Below are positions 4,383 to 22,840 of a DNA stretch of 23,711 nucleotides, in pieces; position 1 is the first letter of the stretch; the number at the start of each line of letters is the position of its first letter. The notes under the pieces were generated by a model that made no database searches, was not told the origin of the DNA, and saw only the letters and a list, made by a program, of their open reading frames with translations. The DNA is from a virus. The stretch covers positions 1 to 23,711 of the IMG/VR virus record IMGVR_UViG_3300030419_001458, one strand, 5' to 3'. A program made the translations under genes and the position numbers.

Positions 4383-4419
4383 GGTATGAGTTAAGTGTGA
4401 AAGACTATTAATGTTAGGA

Positions 4420-4455
4420 CTGGCAGGTGAGGCCAGCTCGGAAGGAGATTTCCCG
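4420..4455 (+). promoter_or_regulatory. GC-rich structured leader with ribosome site of the BMP gene
   Basis: CTGGC (4420-4424) and GCCAG (4432-4436) form a 5-bp hairpin with a 7-nt loop, followed by GGAAGGAGA (Shine-Dalgarno, about 8 nt before ATG 4456). The stretch is far more GC-rich than surrounding intergenic DNA. TCCCGA at 4451-4456 overlaps the start codon and is complementary to TCGGGA at 4365-4370. That upstream copy would be in the RNA only on readthrough transcripts if the TATATATA box is the promoter. No known riboswitch consensus is recognised. Confidence 0.45.
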
Positions 4456-5508
4456 ATGAATATATTTAAAATACTACTGATAGGTTTCTTCCTATCTTTA
4501 TCTACTACAGCATTCGCTGACCCCAAAATCGGATTCATTTACATAGGACCCCCAGGCGACCACGGTTGGACATATATGCACGACCAAGGCCGTCAGGCAA
4601 TTGATGATGAGTTGGGATTTAAAACTACCTATATTGAAAATGTTCCAGAAAATGCAGACGCTGTCCGTGCTATTAGAAAATTAGCAGATACAGGACACGA
4701 TTTAATTTTTACAACATCTTTCAATTATATGGACCAAACTTTAGAAGTGGCAAAAGAGTTTCCAAATATTAAATTTGAACACGCTACTGGCTATAAAAGA
4801 GCAGATAATGTATCTACTTATTCAGCAAGATTCTATGAAGGTCGTACCATTATAGGACATATTGCAGGTAAAGAAACAAAAACTGGCGTTATAGGTTATA
4901 TCGCTTCTTTCCCAATACCTGAAGTTGTGAGAGGTATCAATGCATTTTATTTGGCAGCGTCAAAAGTCAATCCAGATATTAAGTTAAAAATTATTTGGGC
5001 ATATACTTGGTATGATCCAGGTAAAGAAGCAGACGCCGCTAAAACTTTAATAACCCAAGGTGCAGATATCATTGTTCAACATACTGATACTTATGCTCCT
5101 TGTCAAGCTGCTGAAGAAGCAGGTGTTAGGGCATTTGGTCAAGCAAGTGACCAAGAGAAATTTTGTCCTAATGCACATATGACTGCCATCATTGATGATT
5201 GGTCTTCCTATTATGTTGCAAGAGCTAAAGCTGTTGCAAATAATGATTGGGAAAGTCAAGACACTTGGTGGGGGTTAGATAAAGGAATGGTGAAAATGTC
5301 AAGATATACAAATATGAGTCCTGATACAAAGTTTGAAGCAATTAAGTTGCAAAAAGACTTAACATTAGGTAAAGTTCATTCATTTGAAGGACCGATTTAT
5401 AATCAAGCAGGAGAATTAGTAGTTCCTGCTGGTTCGGTTGCTGATGATGGATTGTTAGCAGGTATGAATTTTTATGTTCAAGGCATAGATGGAGAATTAC
5501 CCCAATAA
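4456..5508 (+). CDS. BMP/PnrA-family ABC transporter substrate-binding protein
   Basis: A 350-aa periplasmic solute-binding protein of the basic membrane protein (BMP, COG1744) family, whose characterised members bind purine nucleosides or related ligands for ABC import. It begins with a Sec signal peptide (Lys at 5, hydrophobic core ILLIGFFLSL, cleavage expected after TAFA at residue 21) and has no lipobox Cys. The mature N-terminus KIGFIYIGPPGDHGWTYMHD, the ENVPENADAVRAIRKLA block, HATGYK, and TDTYAPCQAAEE are typical. It appears full length with no frameshift. Start 4456 is chosen because AAGGAGA lies just upstream; the in-frame ATG at 4411 would bury the signal peptide and lies upstream of that site. 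No permease or ATPase genes are nearby, so it presumably loads a host transporter. It is flanked by terminators on both sides, like a recently acquired host-derived cassette. Ligand is unknown. Confidence 0.93.
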   Translation: MNIFKILLIGFFLSLSTTAFADPKIGFIYIGPPGDHGWTYMHDQGRQAIDDELGFKTTYIENVPENADAVRAIRKLADTGHDLIFTTSFNYMDQTLEVAKEFPNIKFEHATGYKRADNVSTYSARFYEGRTIIGHIAGKETKTGVIGYIASFPIPEVVRGINAFYLAASKVNPDIKLKIIWAYTWYDPGKEADAAKTLITQGADIIVQHTDTYAPCQAAEEAGVRAFGQASDQEKFCPNAHMTAIIDDWSSYYVARAKAVANNDWESQDTWWGLDKGMVKMSRYTNMSPDTKFEAIKLQKDLTLGKVHSFEGPIYNQAGELVVPAGSVADDGLLAGMNFYVQGIDGELPQ

Positions 5509-18212: not shown

Positions 18213-20687
18213 ATGCGAAATAAAAAACAAAATATAAATGTAATTAACAAAGAATCTAAAGGATATCTTGCTAAATTACTTGCAACAGAAAATATTTCCG
18301 TAGAACATAAAAAAGTGCAAACAGCATCCTTTGATGTTAAGAGTAGAAAATTAACACTTCCTATCTGGAAGAAAATGGATAATAATGTTATTGACTTATT
18401 AATTGCACACGAAGTTGGACACGCCTTATATACCCCTCAAAACGCTTGGGAAAAAGCTATAGACAAAGGTATTCAACATTCATTTTTAAATGTTATTGAG
18501 GATGCTAGAATTGAGAAATTAATTAAAAGAAAATACCCAGGAACTTCACAATCATTTATTAAAGGATATAAAACATTAATTGAAGGTGATTTTTTCGGAA
18601 CTAAAAAAAGAGATATTAATAAAATGCTACTAATTGATAGATTAAATATTCACTTTAAATCTTCCATAGTAGGTTCAATAGTTAAATTTGATAATAAAAA
18701 AGAATTAGATATTGTTAAAAGAATGGAACAATTAGAAACTTTTGATGATGTTGTTAAACTTGCTGAAGAATTAGGGGGTTATTGTAAATCGGAAATGCAA
18801 TCTAAAGGTATTGACCAATTAGATGTTGGTGATGGTGATATTGATGAAGATTCAGAACCATATGATTCAGATGAGATGAGGGATGAACAACAAGGTAATG
18901 ATTCAGACCAACAAAAAAGTGAAGAAGAAAACAAAGATTCAGAAGAAACAGAACAAGACCAAGACGGCCAAGGTAATGCTGATGATAAAGAAGAAAAAAA
19001 AGAAGAAGATAAAAAAGAAAAAAATGAATCAGATAGTCCTGGAAGAAATGCAGGTCATCAGGCAGATGATACTAAACAAACTTGGAATGATTCAGACCCA
19101 GAACCTATTGCTGAGACCGATACTTCTTATGAAGAAAATAGTAAAAAATTATTAGACAAAGACTCTAAAGAAAATGAATATTTTTATATTCACAATTTTA
19201 AAAACTACAAAGACTTTGTTTGGGACTATAAAAAAGTATTAAAAGATTTCCGTAATCACCATAATGTATTTTTTAATGGAACTGACAGAAATGAATATTA
19301 TAAAAGTCCAGAAAGAAACAAAGCTTGGCAATTCGGTGTTAGTGAATATCAAAAATTTAAAAGAGATAGTTCAAAACAAGTTAATTATATGGTTAAAGAA
19401 TTTGAGATGAAAAAAGCAGCAGCCGCATATAAGAGGGCACAAACATCCAATTCAGGAGTTATTGACCCATTAAAATTACATAGTTATAAATTTAATCAGG
19501 ATATTTTTAAAAGATTAACTGCTACACCTGATGGTAAGAATCACGGTTTAATAATGTATATTGATTGGTCAGGTAGTATGAGTGATAAATTATTTGATAC
19601 TATTAAACAATTAATGAATTTAACTATGTTTTGTAAAAAGATTAATATACCTTTTGAAGTATATGCTTTCAATAACGGTCGTTGGGAAAGTAGTGTGGAA
19701 AGAGATAAGGAAGATAGAAAATGTATTTATCAAAATAAAGATGTCACTATTGACCATAATTTAAGAATAATAAATTATATTTCTTCAAAAATGAATGCTA
19801 GAGAATATGAAACTGGAATGATGAATTTATATATGTTAGGGTTATCAAAAAGCAGAGATTATTATTCATATTTCCATCCAAGAAAATTTCATAGAATGAG
19901 TGCTGAAGAACAAGAAAAACTTATAGCTGAACAGGAATTGATGAGAAATTTACCAGATACTCCTTCAGGTTATGGGTTAAGTTCAACACCTTTAAATGAT
20001 ACTATTATGGCAGCGATGTATATGGTTCCAGAATTTCAATTAGAATATAATATTGATAAAATGATTACCGTATTTTTAACTGACGGTTCTTCCGATGGTA
20101 ATGAAAGAGTTGCTATTACAGACCCAGCAGATAAAACTAAAGAGATGGATGATGATTGGTATGTAAAGTCACCAAACAAATATTATGCAGGCACAAATGC
20201 ATATGGAAGTATTCATCTAGGATATAATACTAACCACATTATGGTTGATAGAATTACTAAAAATCAATATTCAAATACTGGTTCCAGAACCACTATGACC
20301 GATAATTTATTAAGAGCATTAAAAGAAAGAACAGGAACTACACTTATTGGTTTTTATATTACTAGTGGGAAAAGATTAGACTATTATATGTTGGACGATT
20401 ATTTTCCACAAAATACTTTTTATTCAGAAAAAGGTAAAAAAACATATGATAGAAATTTAATTAATGCACATTGGAGAAAACACAAATATTTATGTGCTAC
20501 AGATAATACAGGTTATGATGAATACTACCTCATTAGTGGGGCAGGTATAAAGATTACTGATGGTCAAATGGCAACACCATCTGATAATGCAAAAAAGGGA
20601 GAAATAAAAAGGTTGTTCTCACAAAACTTAAAGTCGAATAGACAAAGTAGAGTGATAATGCACCGATTTATTTCACAAGTTGCTTAA
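18213..20687 (+). CDS. Metallopeptidase-motif and VWA-domain protein (CobT-like)
   Basis: An 824-aa protein in three parts. The N-terminal 200 residues contain LLIAHEVGHALYTP with a zincin HExxH at 66-70 and NVIEDARIE (93-101) with Glu96 as a possible third zinc ligand. Residues about 205-325 are a low-complexity acidic/Lys-rich linker. The C-terminal half is a von Willebrand A domain: MYIDWSGSMSDK with the MIDAS DxSGS at 451-455, and ITVFLTDGSSDG later. VWA proteins of this type work with MoxR/CobS AAA+ ATPases, as in CobT-CobS cobalt chelatase, and such an ATPase is encoded two genes downstream. Phage versions are usually annotated CobT, but the HExxH makes a peptidase or unfolding role possible. 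It has its own early promoter. Confidence 0.85.
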   Translation: MRNKKQNINVINKESKGYLAKLLATENISVEHKKVQTASFDVKSRKLTLPIWKKMDNNVIDLLIAHEVGHALYTPQNAWEKAIDKGIQHSFLNVIEDARIEKLIKRKYPGTSQSFIKGYKTLIEGDFFGTKKRDINKMLLIDRLNIHFKSSIVGSIVKFDNKKELDIVKRMEQLETFDDVVKLAEELGGYCKSEMQSKGIDQLDVGDGDIDEDSEPYDSDEMRDEQQGNDSDQQKSEEENKDSEETEQDQDGQGNADDKEEKKEEDKKEKNESDSPGRNAGHQADDTKQTWNDSDPEPIAETDTSYEENSKKLLDKDSKENEYFYIHNFKNYKDFVWDYKKVLKDFRNHHNVFFNGTDRNEYYKSPERNKAWQFGVSEYQKFKRDSSKQVNYMVKEFEMKKAAAAYKRAQTSNSGVIDPLKLHSYKFNQDIFKRLTATPDGKNHGLIMYIDWSGSMSDKLFDTIKQLMNLTMFCKKINIPFEVYAFNNGRWESSVERDKEDRKCIYQNKDVTIDHNLRIINYISSKMNAREYETGMMNLYMLGLSKSRDYYSYFHPRKFHRMSAEEQEKLIAEQELMRNLPDTPSGYGLSSTPLNDTIMAAMYMVPEFQLEYNIDKMITVFLTDGSSDGNERVAITDPADKTKEMDDDWYVKSPNKYYAGTNAYGSIHLGYNTNHIMVDRITKNQYSNTGSRTTMTDNLLRALKERTGTTLIGFYITSGKRLDYYMLDDYFPQNTFYSEKGKKTYDRNLINAHWRKHKYLCATDNTGYDEYYLISGAGIKITDGQMATPSDNAKKGEIKRLFSQNLKSNRQSRVIMHRFISQVA

Positions 20688-20706
20688 ATTGAAGGGAACT
20701 TATATT

Positions 20707-20970
20707 ATGGAAAACAATCCAAGTGTAAAACTTTCAGATAGTCAAAAAGAGTTTGTTGAATTAGCAAATTCAGAAGGCTTTAATTCTACTATTACTAGAA
20801 AAGATATTATTTCTTTACAAGGTAAACACGGAATTAAAAAACCTGCTTGGCTTATGAAAAATATGAGTTATAGAATCGGTAGAGCTCAATATAGTTTGCC
20901 TACAATAGGGCAAGTTATGAGCGAATCAACTGATTCGGTAACTACTGATACCGAGGTTAATGACCAATAG
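20707..20970 (+). CDS. Stand-alone copy of the CobS-like N-terminal domain
   Basis: Encodes 87 residues from ATG 20707, which has GAAGGGA 9 nt upstream; a TTG start at 20680 overlapping the VWA gene is less likely. Residues from SDSQKEFVELANSEG to RIGRAQYSLPT align with residues 6-59 of the AAA+ protein downstream (NSQKEVVEALNAHYG to KIGRGMYKLPV), including K-x-P-[AS]-W-L and Y-[RK]-IGR-x-x-Y-x-LP. The domain resembles a small helix-turn-helix or winged helix. As a single-domain copy between the VWA and AAA+ genes it could act as an adaptor, competitor or regulator of the pair. A strong hairpin follows. Confidence 0.82.
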   Translation: MENNPSVKLSDSQKEFVELANSEGFNSTITRKDIISLQGKHGIKKPAWLMKNMSYRIGRAQYSLPTIGQVMSESTDSVTTDTEVNDQ

Positions 20971-20988
20971 TATCAAAAAAATACTAGG

Positions 20989-21012
20989 AATGGGGGTTTT
21001 TAACCCCCATTT
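20989..21012 (+). terminator. Strong hairpin, probable terminator
   Basis: AATGGGGGTT (20989-20998) and AACCCCCATT (21002-21011) form a perfect 10-bp stem with a TTT loop. Only a short T run follows, so termination may be partial. It separates the VWA/87-aa unit from the AAA+ gene. Confidence 0.7.
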
Positions 21013-21022
21013 CGGACAAATA

Positions 21023-21037
21023 GAACAAAATGAGAAC
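21023..21037. promoter_or_regulatory. GAAC-N7-GAAC element (LexA-like box), copy 2
   Basis: GAAC AAAATGA GAAC differs from copy 1 at one base over the 15-nt core and lies 123 nt before the AAA+ start, nearly the same distance as copy 1 from the VWA gene. Both copies directly follow a hairpin. Confidence 0.5.
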
Positions 21038-21122
21038 AAAGAAAATGGAAAAAGCGCAGAAAATAAGGGCTTTTTTATCCATTATTTGCTTGAGAATAAT
21101 CCGAATCTATGTTAAGCTTAAG

Positions 21123-21128
21123 TATAAT
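21123..21128 (+). promoter_or_regulatory. Possible -10 box of the AAA+ gene
   Basis: A perfect TATAAT precedes the AAA+ gene by 32 nt, but the hexamer 17 nt upstream (TCCGAA) is a poor -35. TTGAGA at 21090-21095 is a better -35 but pairs by spacing with TAAGCT (21113-21118). The promoter is likely, its exact boxes are not. Confidence 0.4.
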
Positions 21129-21160
21129 GAAAATTGAAAACTATATTATGAAAGGAAAAA

Positions 21161-22360
21161 ATGACTACATTAAATAATTCACAAAAAGAAGTAGTTGAAG
21201 CATTAAATGCTCACTATGGAAAAACTGAATTAAGTCGTTCCGAAATAAATGATTTTATTAAATCATCTAGTTTTAAAAATCCTAGTTGGTTAAAATCTGA
21301 AAAATATAAAATCGGAAGGGGTATGTATAAATTACCAGTTGATGGTGATATCAATATACCTACAAAGACAGATTCAGTTGTTAATAAAACTGAAACGGCA
21401 GATGTTCCTGAAACTATTAATCAGGCGGCATTTATTGTTTCAAGTTTAACAGGTAATATTGTACCTGTTAAAGACCCAGTTTTTGTGCCTTGGGGGCATT
21501 TTAAAGACATTAAATCAATTGTTACCTCAAAACAATTTTATCCAATATTCATTACTGGACTTTCTGGAAACGGAAAGACTATGAATGTTCAACAAGCTTG
21601 TGCTCAAACAAAAAGAGAGTGTATTAGGGTTAACATTACTATTGAAACCGATGAGGATGACTTACTCGGCGGATATAGATTGCAAGACGGTCAAACCGTT
21701 TGGCAAAATGGTCCAGTTGTTGAAGCAATGGAAAGGGGTGCCCTTTTATTGTTAGATGAAATTGACCTTGCTTCTAATAAAATTATGTGTTTACAACCTA
21801 TATTAGAAGGTAACGGTGTCTTTCTTAAAAAGATTAACAAGTTTGTTAAACCTGCACCAGGGTTTAATGTGATTGCAACTGCCAATACTAAAGGGCAGGG
21901 ATCCGAAGATGGAAAGTTTATCGGAACTAATATTCTTAACGAGGCATTCCTTGAAAGATTTCCAATCACGGTTGAACAATCTTATCCAACTAATAAGATT
22001 GAAACTAAAATCTTAAATAATGTTATGTCCGAAAACGGATTAACAAAAAAAGATGATGAAAAGTTTGCTACAAATTTAATTACTTGGGCAGACATTATCA
22101 GAAAAACTTATTATGAAGGCGGAGTTGATGAAATTATATCAACAAGAAGATTAGTCCATATTGTTTCTGCCTTTGCTATTTTTAAAGATAAAATGAAGGC
22201 AATTGAATTATGTACCAATAGGTTTGATTTGGATACCAAAACTTCATTTATGGACTTATATACGAAAATTGACGGAGGGGAAGATGTTGCTTCCTGGGGT
22301 CAACCAAGTGTAGAATCAGATTCCGATAATGATGAGGAAGTTGATCCAATAAATCAATAA
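21161..22360 (+). CDS. cobS: CobS/MoxR-type AAA+ ATPase with N-terminal HTH-like domain
   Basis: A 399-aa AAA+ ATPase. Residues 1-60 form the small domain shared with the 87-aa protein upstream. A linker leads to the ATPase: PWGHFKDIKSIVTSKQFYP, Walker A GLSGNGKT (133-140), the MoxR-like insert ETDEDDLLGGYRLQDGQTVWQNGPVVEAM, Walker B LLLLDEID (195-202), LQPILEGNGV, sensor 1 IATANTKGQGSEDG (Asn242) and STRRLVHIVSAF near 330 for sensor 2. The C-terminus is acidic. Homologs in marine phages are annotated CobS. With the VWA protein it forms the usual ATPase-VWA pair. Whether it inserts metal, remodels a host complex or drives the HExxH protein is unknown. Start supported by AAAGGA. Confidence 0.9.
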   Translation: MTTLNNSQKEVVEALNAHYGKTELSRSEINDFIKSSSFKNPSWLKSEKYKIGRGMYKLPVDGDINIPTKTDSVVNKTETADVPETINQAAFIVSSLTGNIVPVKDPVFVPWGHFKDIKSIVTSKQFYPIFITGLSGNGKTMNVQQACAQTKRECIRVNITIETDEDDLLGGYRLQDGQTVWQNGPVVEAMERGALLLLDEIDLASNKIMCLQPILEGNGVFLKKINKFVKPAPGFNVIATANTKGQGSEDGKFIGTNILNEAFLERFPITVEQSYPTNKIETKILNNVMSENGLTKKDDEKFATNLITWADIIRKTYYEGGVDEIISTRRLVHIVSAFAIFKDKMKAIELCTNRFDLDTKTSFMDLYTKIDGGEDVASWGQPSVESDSDNDEEVDPINQ

Positions 22361-22385: not shown

Positions 22386-22416
22386 AGGGCGGAGTCCAAT
22401 CCGCCCTTTTCTTTTA
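22386..22416 (+). terminator. Intrinsic terminator after the AAA+ gene
   Basis: AGGGCGGA (22386-22393) pairs with TCCGCCCT (22400-22407) around a 6-nt loop, followed by TTTTCTTTT. A strong rho-independent terminator. Confidence 0.9.
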
Positions 22417-22477: not shown

Positions 22478-22840
22478 ATGAGCGAATTAAAAGATTATAT
22501 TAAAATCGGATACCGAAACTATAAGTTAGATGTTTGGCCTGATACCTTTGCTTCTACTGAAGAAGCAGAAGGAGAGTTTTTTGCTAAAGATGGTAAGATA
22601 GGTATTAAAGGTTCTACTTTAGGTAGTATGCACGGTGCAAATACTTTACTACACGAAATACTACACGCTATTGTTTATCAATATGGTTTAGCAGAGGACA
22701 TAAAAGATAAAGAAGAAAAGATAGTTAATACTTTAACAAATGGTTTAAGTGCTGTATTTATTGATAATCCTTGGTTGCTAGATTATTTAAAAGATAAAGT
22801 AAAGAAAGAAAAAGAATCAGTTAATGAAAAAACAAAATGA
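22478..22840 (+). CDS. Small zincin-like metallopeptidase
   Basis: A 120-aa protein with NTLLHEILHAIVYQYGL (about 55-71) carrying an HExxH zinc site at 59-63, followed by EEKIVNTLTNGLSAVF, where Glu or Asn/Thr residues of the next helix may complete the site. The N-terminus has two strand-like segments (YIKIGYRNYKLDVW and KDGKIGIKGSTLG). Small phage zincins of this build are common and their targets are unknown. It begins an early operon with the coiled-coil, bS21 and winged-helix genes and overlaps the next gene by 17 nt. Confidence 0.82.
   Translation: MSELKDYIKIGYRNYKLDVWPDTFASTEEAEGEFFAKDGKIGIKGSTLGSMHGANTLLHEILHAIVYQYGLAEDIKDKEEKIVNTLTNGLSAVFIDNPWLLDYLKDKVKKEKESVNEKTK

Follow-up and report, generated by a model that had tools for sequence, protein, structure and literature searches.

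Marine T4-like cyanophages have cobS among their core genes (PMC3037559); this gene and its neighbour, both of which also occur in pelagiphages, are often counted among the auxiliary metabolic genes for vitamin B12. The stretch of viral DNA analysed in the current work (IMG/VR record IMGVR_UViG_3300030419_001458, positions 1 to 23,711, being part of a 25.5-kb record and hereafter referred to as the window) carries such a pair together with a third, small gene, and raises the question of what this pair does and of what the small gene product may add to it. Three open reading frames with products of 824, 87 and 399 amino acids were found at the positions assigned to them by a first-pass annotation of the window made from its sequence:

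18213-20687, + strand: P0001, a protein of 824 amino acids composed of a predicted zincin (HExxH) domain, an acidic linker and a von Willebrand factor A (VWA) domain (PHROGs phrog_459 'peptidase', E 2.5e-206).
20707-20970, + strand: P0002, a winged-helix-like protein of 87 amino acids, being a stand-alone paralogue of the N-terminal domain (N-domain) of the ATPase, with its ATG at 20707.
21161-22360, + strand: P0003, a MoxR/CobS-type AAA+ ATPase of 399 amino acids (PHROGs phrog_249 'porphyrin biosynthesis'; AAA_5).

It is argued here that in these phages the pair constitutes a protein-remodelling and probably proteolytic machine, because the peptidase motif is invariant and CobN is lacking in the SAR11 host family. 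The nearest isolates by identity of the P0003 ATPase are the Pelagibacter phages Mosig (66%) and HTVC008M (61%), both Kyanoviridae, and the host family is probably SAR11, as read from these isolate relatives and from a window gene whose product is 72-76% identical to SAR11 proteins. Members of phrog_459 and phrog_249 are present in hundreds of cyanophages as well as in pelagiphages.

The ATPase matches AAA_5 with 71 bits (E 1.3e-19; cut-off 22) and possesses both the Walker A motif and sensor 1 expected of a MoxR-type enzyme, while its best sequence relatives in the PDB are midasin, CobS (E 4.5e-21), NorQ and CbbQ. The two features of P0003 that matter for what follows are:

21161-21364, + strand: the N-domain of the ATPase, homologous to P0002.
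21557-21580, + strand: Walker A motif GLSGNGKT (residues 133-140), present in 80/82 relatives.

The neighbouring VWA gene encodes a protein with a complete metal ion-dependent adhesion site (MIDAS), so that the two genes form a MoxR AAA+/VWA pair. The first-pass annotation had described the 824-residue protein as combining HExxH with VWA, and this is borne out by the family alignment, in which the HEVGH and MIDAS residues are invariant:

18408-18422, + strand: HEVGH (residues 66-70), the predicted zinc site; HExxH occurs in 114/114 full-length phage relatives.
18498-18503, + strand: E96/D97, located 3' of HEVGH; invariant.
19563-19577, + strand: DWSGS (residues 451-455) of the MIDAS; invariant in 48/48.
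19986-19988 and 20082-20084, + strand: T592 and D624, which complete the MIDAS; invariant in 48/48.
20667-20684, + strand: FISQVA, the hydrophobic C-terminus; an ending of the FI..VA type is conserved in relatives.

At the amino acid level, the MIDAS is thus made up of D451, S453, S455, T592 and D624, and on the zincin side H66, E67, H70, E96, D97 and R99 do not vary in 48 diverse sequences. In the predicted structure of P0001 (mean predicted local distance difference test score, pLDDT, of 73.5 over the whole model), the VWA domain is nearest to the VWA domain of NorQ-bound NorD (255 residues, Z 16.0) and also resembles the MIDAS domain of MDN1/Rea1, i.e. midasin (Z 13.5-15.6). To our knowledge, NorD and midasin are without a zincin domain, and it is the predicted zincin domain of the phage protein that sets the phage pair apart from NorQD and midasin, which it otherwise resembles in its VWA fold, its MIDAS, its related ATPase and its hydrophobic C-terminal end. 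NorD deletion data place the docking of NorD on NorQ at its C-terminus (PMC13036017); the FISQVA end is found at the corresponding location, and by analogy the conserved FI..VA ending of the phage protein fits a NorQD-like dock.

The pair itself is already described, albeit under different names. Viral 'cobST' clusters have been reported by authors who called the cyanophage name 'peptidase' mistaken and proposed that the viruses hijack host CobN (Liu et al. 2021, PMC8651126); these clusters, as well as the cyanophage cobS plus peptidase (PMC3037559), correspond to phrog_249 and phrog_459, both of which are present in P-SSM2 and HTVC008M. According to that proposal the phage pair would join host CobN as a cobaltochelatase and so raise the supply of cobalamin, a reading consistent with the CobS similarity of the ATPase noted above and with a colinear match of low significance between the VWA protein and CobT. 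However, P0003 reaches only 69.7 bits against the PD_CobS equivalog (TIGR01650; cut-off 558.55) and P0001 only 10.5 bits against the CobT equivalog (TIGR01651; cut-off 759.05), both scores being far below the level of the cellular families. Moreover, no member of the CobN/Mg-chelatase large subunit family was detected in three complete related phages (HTVC008M, Mosig and P-SSM2; 0/3) or in SAR11-family genomes (0/110), while control genomes gave matches; 110 misses by chance alone are unlikely, the completeness of these host genomes not being stated. The HExxH motif, invariant in the phage proteins, is absent from all cellular CobT sequences inspected (0/25), and SAR11 moreover has a CobT homologue of its own. 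Cobalamin synthesis by the module is unlikely because the CobS and CobT cut-offs are missed and CobN is absent from the three phages and the 110 host-family genomes; a cobalamin role for this phage group was rejected on the same grounds, and the CobN-joining chelatase is very improbable in our estimation. The first-pass annotation had placed the module among the ATPase-VWA pairs, which act as chelatases or complex-remodelling chaperones, and had doubted a part in cobalamin synthesis; the cut-offs, the VWA fold and the lack of CobN support an AAA+/VWA remodelling pair that gives no sign of such synthesis. As for cobN, the lack of which the annotation had also remarked, a 25.5-kb fragment alone could not settle the matter, yet the remark holds for HTVC008M, Mosig and P-SSM2 and for the inferred host family.

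The relationship between the phage VWA protein and CobT was followed by profile comparison. Both the phage pair and cellular CobT/CobS of Alphaproteobacteria (including SAR11) have the order N-domain, acidic linker and VWA in their VWA protein. A first comparison over the whole length gave a probability of 8.9%, whereas a domain-wise comparison, made under a different alignment setting and with SAR11 CobT and the CobT-like plasmid protein P0005 added, yielded colinear matches of N-domain to N-domain (60.6%) and of VWA to VWA (40.5%), against 0.1-0.2% for crossed domain pairs used as controls. Because these values come from the more favourable of two settings, the homology between the phage protein and CobT is provisional; a direct BLASTP comparison of P0001 with P0005 was insignificant. 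The phage VWA protein may be distantly related to CobT, having either retained or acquired a zincin site. When the window segment 18408-18530 is set against 25 CobT loci (L249-L273), the CobT N-domains often show HHD/HHE...H and then EQARxEA at the place of HEVGH and then EDARIEK in the phage protein; the N-domain of cellular CobT may thus be related to the phage zincin but inactive. A literature search on CobT in combination with metalloprotease and phage returned nothing.

As for the SAR11 genomes, a CobT homologue was observed in 96/110 (G001 and relatives), i.e. in the same set that gave 0/110 for CobN, and in the three SAR11 loci checked (L343, L344 and L345) a CobS-like ATPase lies beside this homologue; SAR11 therefore seems to possess a pair of the CobST type in the absence of CobN. 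A further CobT-like VWA protein (PF06213, PF11775) devoid of HExxH is encoded beside a MoxR ATPase on an Acinetobacter plasmid (L168, 2415-5726), close to sigma factor and DNA polymerase genes, on what is either a plasmid or a phage-plasmid. Plasmid matches of the CobS-like type were used only to reach CobT-like proteins.

The third gene of the module distinguishes the locus from the pairs described before, since HTVC008M and P-SSM2 are without it. P0002 is identical to the first 81 residues of P0003 at 30/79 positions (38%, E 2e-13), in agreement with the first-pass annotation, which had recognized the 87-residue protein as a paralogue of the N-domain of the ATPase. Searches of Pfam, PHROGs, NCBIfam and the PDB with the P0002 sequence gave no convincing match, and matches (E 0.09) to Proteus phage phiP4-3 and to a Shigella phage were treated as chance, the phiP4-3 protein being without most of the invariant residues of the domain. 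A scan of IMG/VR using an alignment of free domains retrieved the stand-alone domain on 68 contigs. The ATPase gene lies directly downstream of it on 57/68 and directly upstream on 8/68, the remaining 3/68 ending too near the free-domain gene to judge; consequently, the free domain adjoins the ATPase gene, on one side or the other, on every contig long enough to judge. On the eight contigs where it comes after the ATPase gene (L284, L287, L288, L289, L295, L310, L313 and L318), the order points to a move of the gene within the module. Tandem copies of the domain within one protein were not seen.

All free copies form one clade (99/99) apart from the ATPase N-domains, in a tree built on few columns and with a long internal branch, the fine structure of which is not trusted. 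The complete genomes of HTVC008M, Mosig and P-SSM2 lack the free domain, as do L026 and a sister group of contigs in which the VWA and ATPase genes are separated by gaps of 62-108 bp, absence from a contig being weak evidence in collections of fragments. Taken together, a single origin of the domain inside one pelagiphage lineage is most likely, after which it stayed linked to the pair even as the gene order changed at least once. The first-pass annotation had held that independent distribution of the three genes would speak against a functional module. Since the free domain was never seen outside the module, this test did not refute the module; the pair itself does occur without the domain. 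To the extent covered by the open-access literature, which is no proof of novelty, a description of the stand-alone domain was not found.

The free domain is under purifying selection, its median ratio of nonsynonymous to synonymous substitution rates (dN/dS) of 0.175 being close to the 0.158 of the ATPase N-domain. Residues R31, W48, L49, K51, Y55, R59, Y62, L64 and P65 are invariant or nearly so in both versions of the domain, which suggests that they make up a ligand surface common to the two, several of them being probably core residues. The same domain with the same invariant residues, yet without the motor, is what would be expected of a competitor or brake that keeps the ligand of the ATPase N-domain from the ring, and a separate gene would allow its dosage to differ from that of the ATPase; nothing, however, tells such a brake from a loader, and nearly all free copies carry a diagnostic extra residue (WL[MLV]K compared to WLK in the ATPase N-domains), which together with further type-specific changes (F16, A20, and R56 in place of K) points to specialization over plain duplication. 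We regard the brake as unlikely. The roles of adaptor, competitor or alternate targeting subunit put forward in the first-pass annotation, and a binding of the domain to the VWA protein, are hypotheses.

The predicted structure of P0002 (pLDDT 80) has a winged-helix topology (H-S-H-H-S-S, where H is helix and S is strand). This topology, together with matches of low Z to winged-helix proteins (BlaI and the MCM8 winged helix among them), would also suit a nucleic-acid-binding regulator acting on the module or on replicating phage DNA, in which case the N-domain of the ATPase would bind the same nucleic acid. The net charge of the domain core, being +4.6 in free copies and +3.0 in ATPase N-domains, is consistent with this, as are the recombination and clamp genes found near the module in related phages. 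Nevertheless, the charge is modest and the fold matches are weak, with Foldseek results for P0002 unspecific at E 0.3 or worse, and winged helices in many cases bind protein; a regulator of this kind is therefore doubtful. By sequence, the free domain may be a loader, a tuner, a blocker or a DNA binder.

The spacing of the genes provides information on how the free domain may be expressed. In most loci the start of the free-domain gene overlaps the stop of the VWA gene or falls within tens of bases of it, and in most such loci a strong hairpin follows 3' of the free-domain gene, its stem differing by subclade (GGGGG/CCCCC versus GAGTGTTGC/GCAACACTC); only weaker hairpins occur at this position in L040, L041, L045-L047 and L054-L056. 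In the window, the relevant sites are:

20989-21011, + strand: hairpin AATGGGGGTT-TTT-AACCCCCATT, just 3' of the P0002 gene; the scan listed it on the - strand.
22386-22407, + strand: terminator-like hairpin after the ATPase gene, with 8 pairs followed by a T-rich tail.

Terminator-like sites number 6 in the region as compared to 1.9 expected by shuffling. The hairpin after the free-domain gene and the close spacing to the VWA gene suggest that these two genes have a common transcript end. A separate promoter for the ATPase gene is only a suggestion, because the promoter scan gave no excess over shuffled sequences (23 versus 25.7).

When these observations are combined, the module may be viewed as an ATP-driven MoxR-VWA protein-remodelling machine akin to NorQD, CbbQO, RavA-ViaA and midasin, whose VWA partner also contains a zincin-like metallopeptidase domain; the active-site motif of this domain is intact, and peptidase activity is predicted. 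By analogy, the ATPase, each subunit of which carries an N-terminal winged-helix-like domain, would probably form a hexameric ring, and the VWA protein would probably dock on this ring by means of its VWA finger and hydrophobic C-terminus, as in NorQD (PMC13036017). By analogy with NorQD and midasin, the MIDAS would grip a target protein via an acidic residue, and ATP turnover would pull, twist or rotate the target and so present it to the zincin domain of the same chain, which would then cleave the remodelled target. In one pelagiphage lineage the N-domain appears to have been duplicated once as a free gene, located mostly between the VWA and ATPase genes, and the free domain would most likely act as an accessory subunit which, via its ligand surface, brings a ligand or target to the complex; alternatively, it could tune how many ring N-domains are engaged. 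The explanation we prefer, with middling confidence, is a remodelling complex of the NorQD/midasin type that is tied to proteolysis and has the free domain for an accessory subunit, the latter binding the ligand of the ring N-domains. A more specific version, in which the free domain serves a phage AAA+ unfoldase-peptidase as dedicated substrate adaptor, having arisen by duplication of the N-domain of that motor, and the phage 'CobT' keeps an active zincin of which the cellular CobT N-domain is an inactivated descendant or sister, must be considered speculative and rather unlikely. If true, the cobST genes of marine myoviruses would encode a machine for targeted proteolysis and not vitamin functions, and the free N-domain would offer a small, testable handle on the choice of target by such a machine.

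Several points weigh against the preferred remodelling complex. The zincin fold of P0001 was not confirmed in the structure search, which effectively covered residues 381-824 and barely touched residues 1-380, and the third zinc ligand can only be guessed at. The winged-helix match of P0002 is weak, with a best Z of 4.6 and a mixture of winged-helix proteins, and no clear clade-specific insertion that might serve as a docking site was detected in the VWA proteins of phages with the free domain. Finally, many relatives carry the ATPase/VWA pair and do without the free domain, which therefore is not essential to the machine.

With regard to the target of the machine, a MoxR ATPase with a metallopeptidase-vWA partner was previously described in group 2.2 jumbo phages and proposed to process virion proteins during assembly, by analogy with a tail-assembly system of an archaeal virus (Iyer et al. 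2021, PMC7824862). The two systems, here likened by description and not by sequence, have in common a MoxR ATPase and a partner whose VWA domain is preceded by a metallopeptidase domain at the N-terminus, while the present module differs by its occurrence in pelagiphages and by the free copy of the ATPase N-domain. Processing of virion proteins concerns the target, and is thus compatible with the remodelling complex preferred above; against this published proposal, the genes near the pair in HTVC008M, Mosig and P-SSM2 are those for recombination endonuclease, sliding clamp or clamp loader and not virion genes, and we consider a virion target possible but only tentatively so.

Two other genes of the window deserve mention. 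After the ATPase gene, at 22478-22840, lies a gene for a protein of 120 amino acids with an HExxH motif (HEILH; phrog_1233) and a weak SprT-like signal, which is also located near the module in many other loci. Directly after a major-capsid-like gene, positions 4411-5508 encode what by sequence is a BMP-type ATP-binding cassette (ABC) transporter substrate-binding protein with a signal peptide; its best match in an isolated phage is at 41.5% identity, none being close, as compared to 72-76% identity with proteins from SAR11 genomes.

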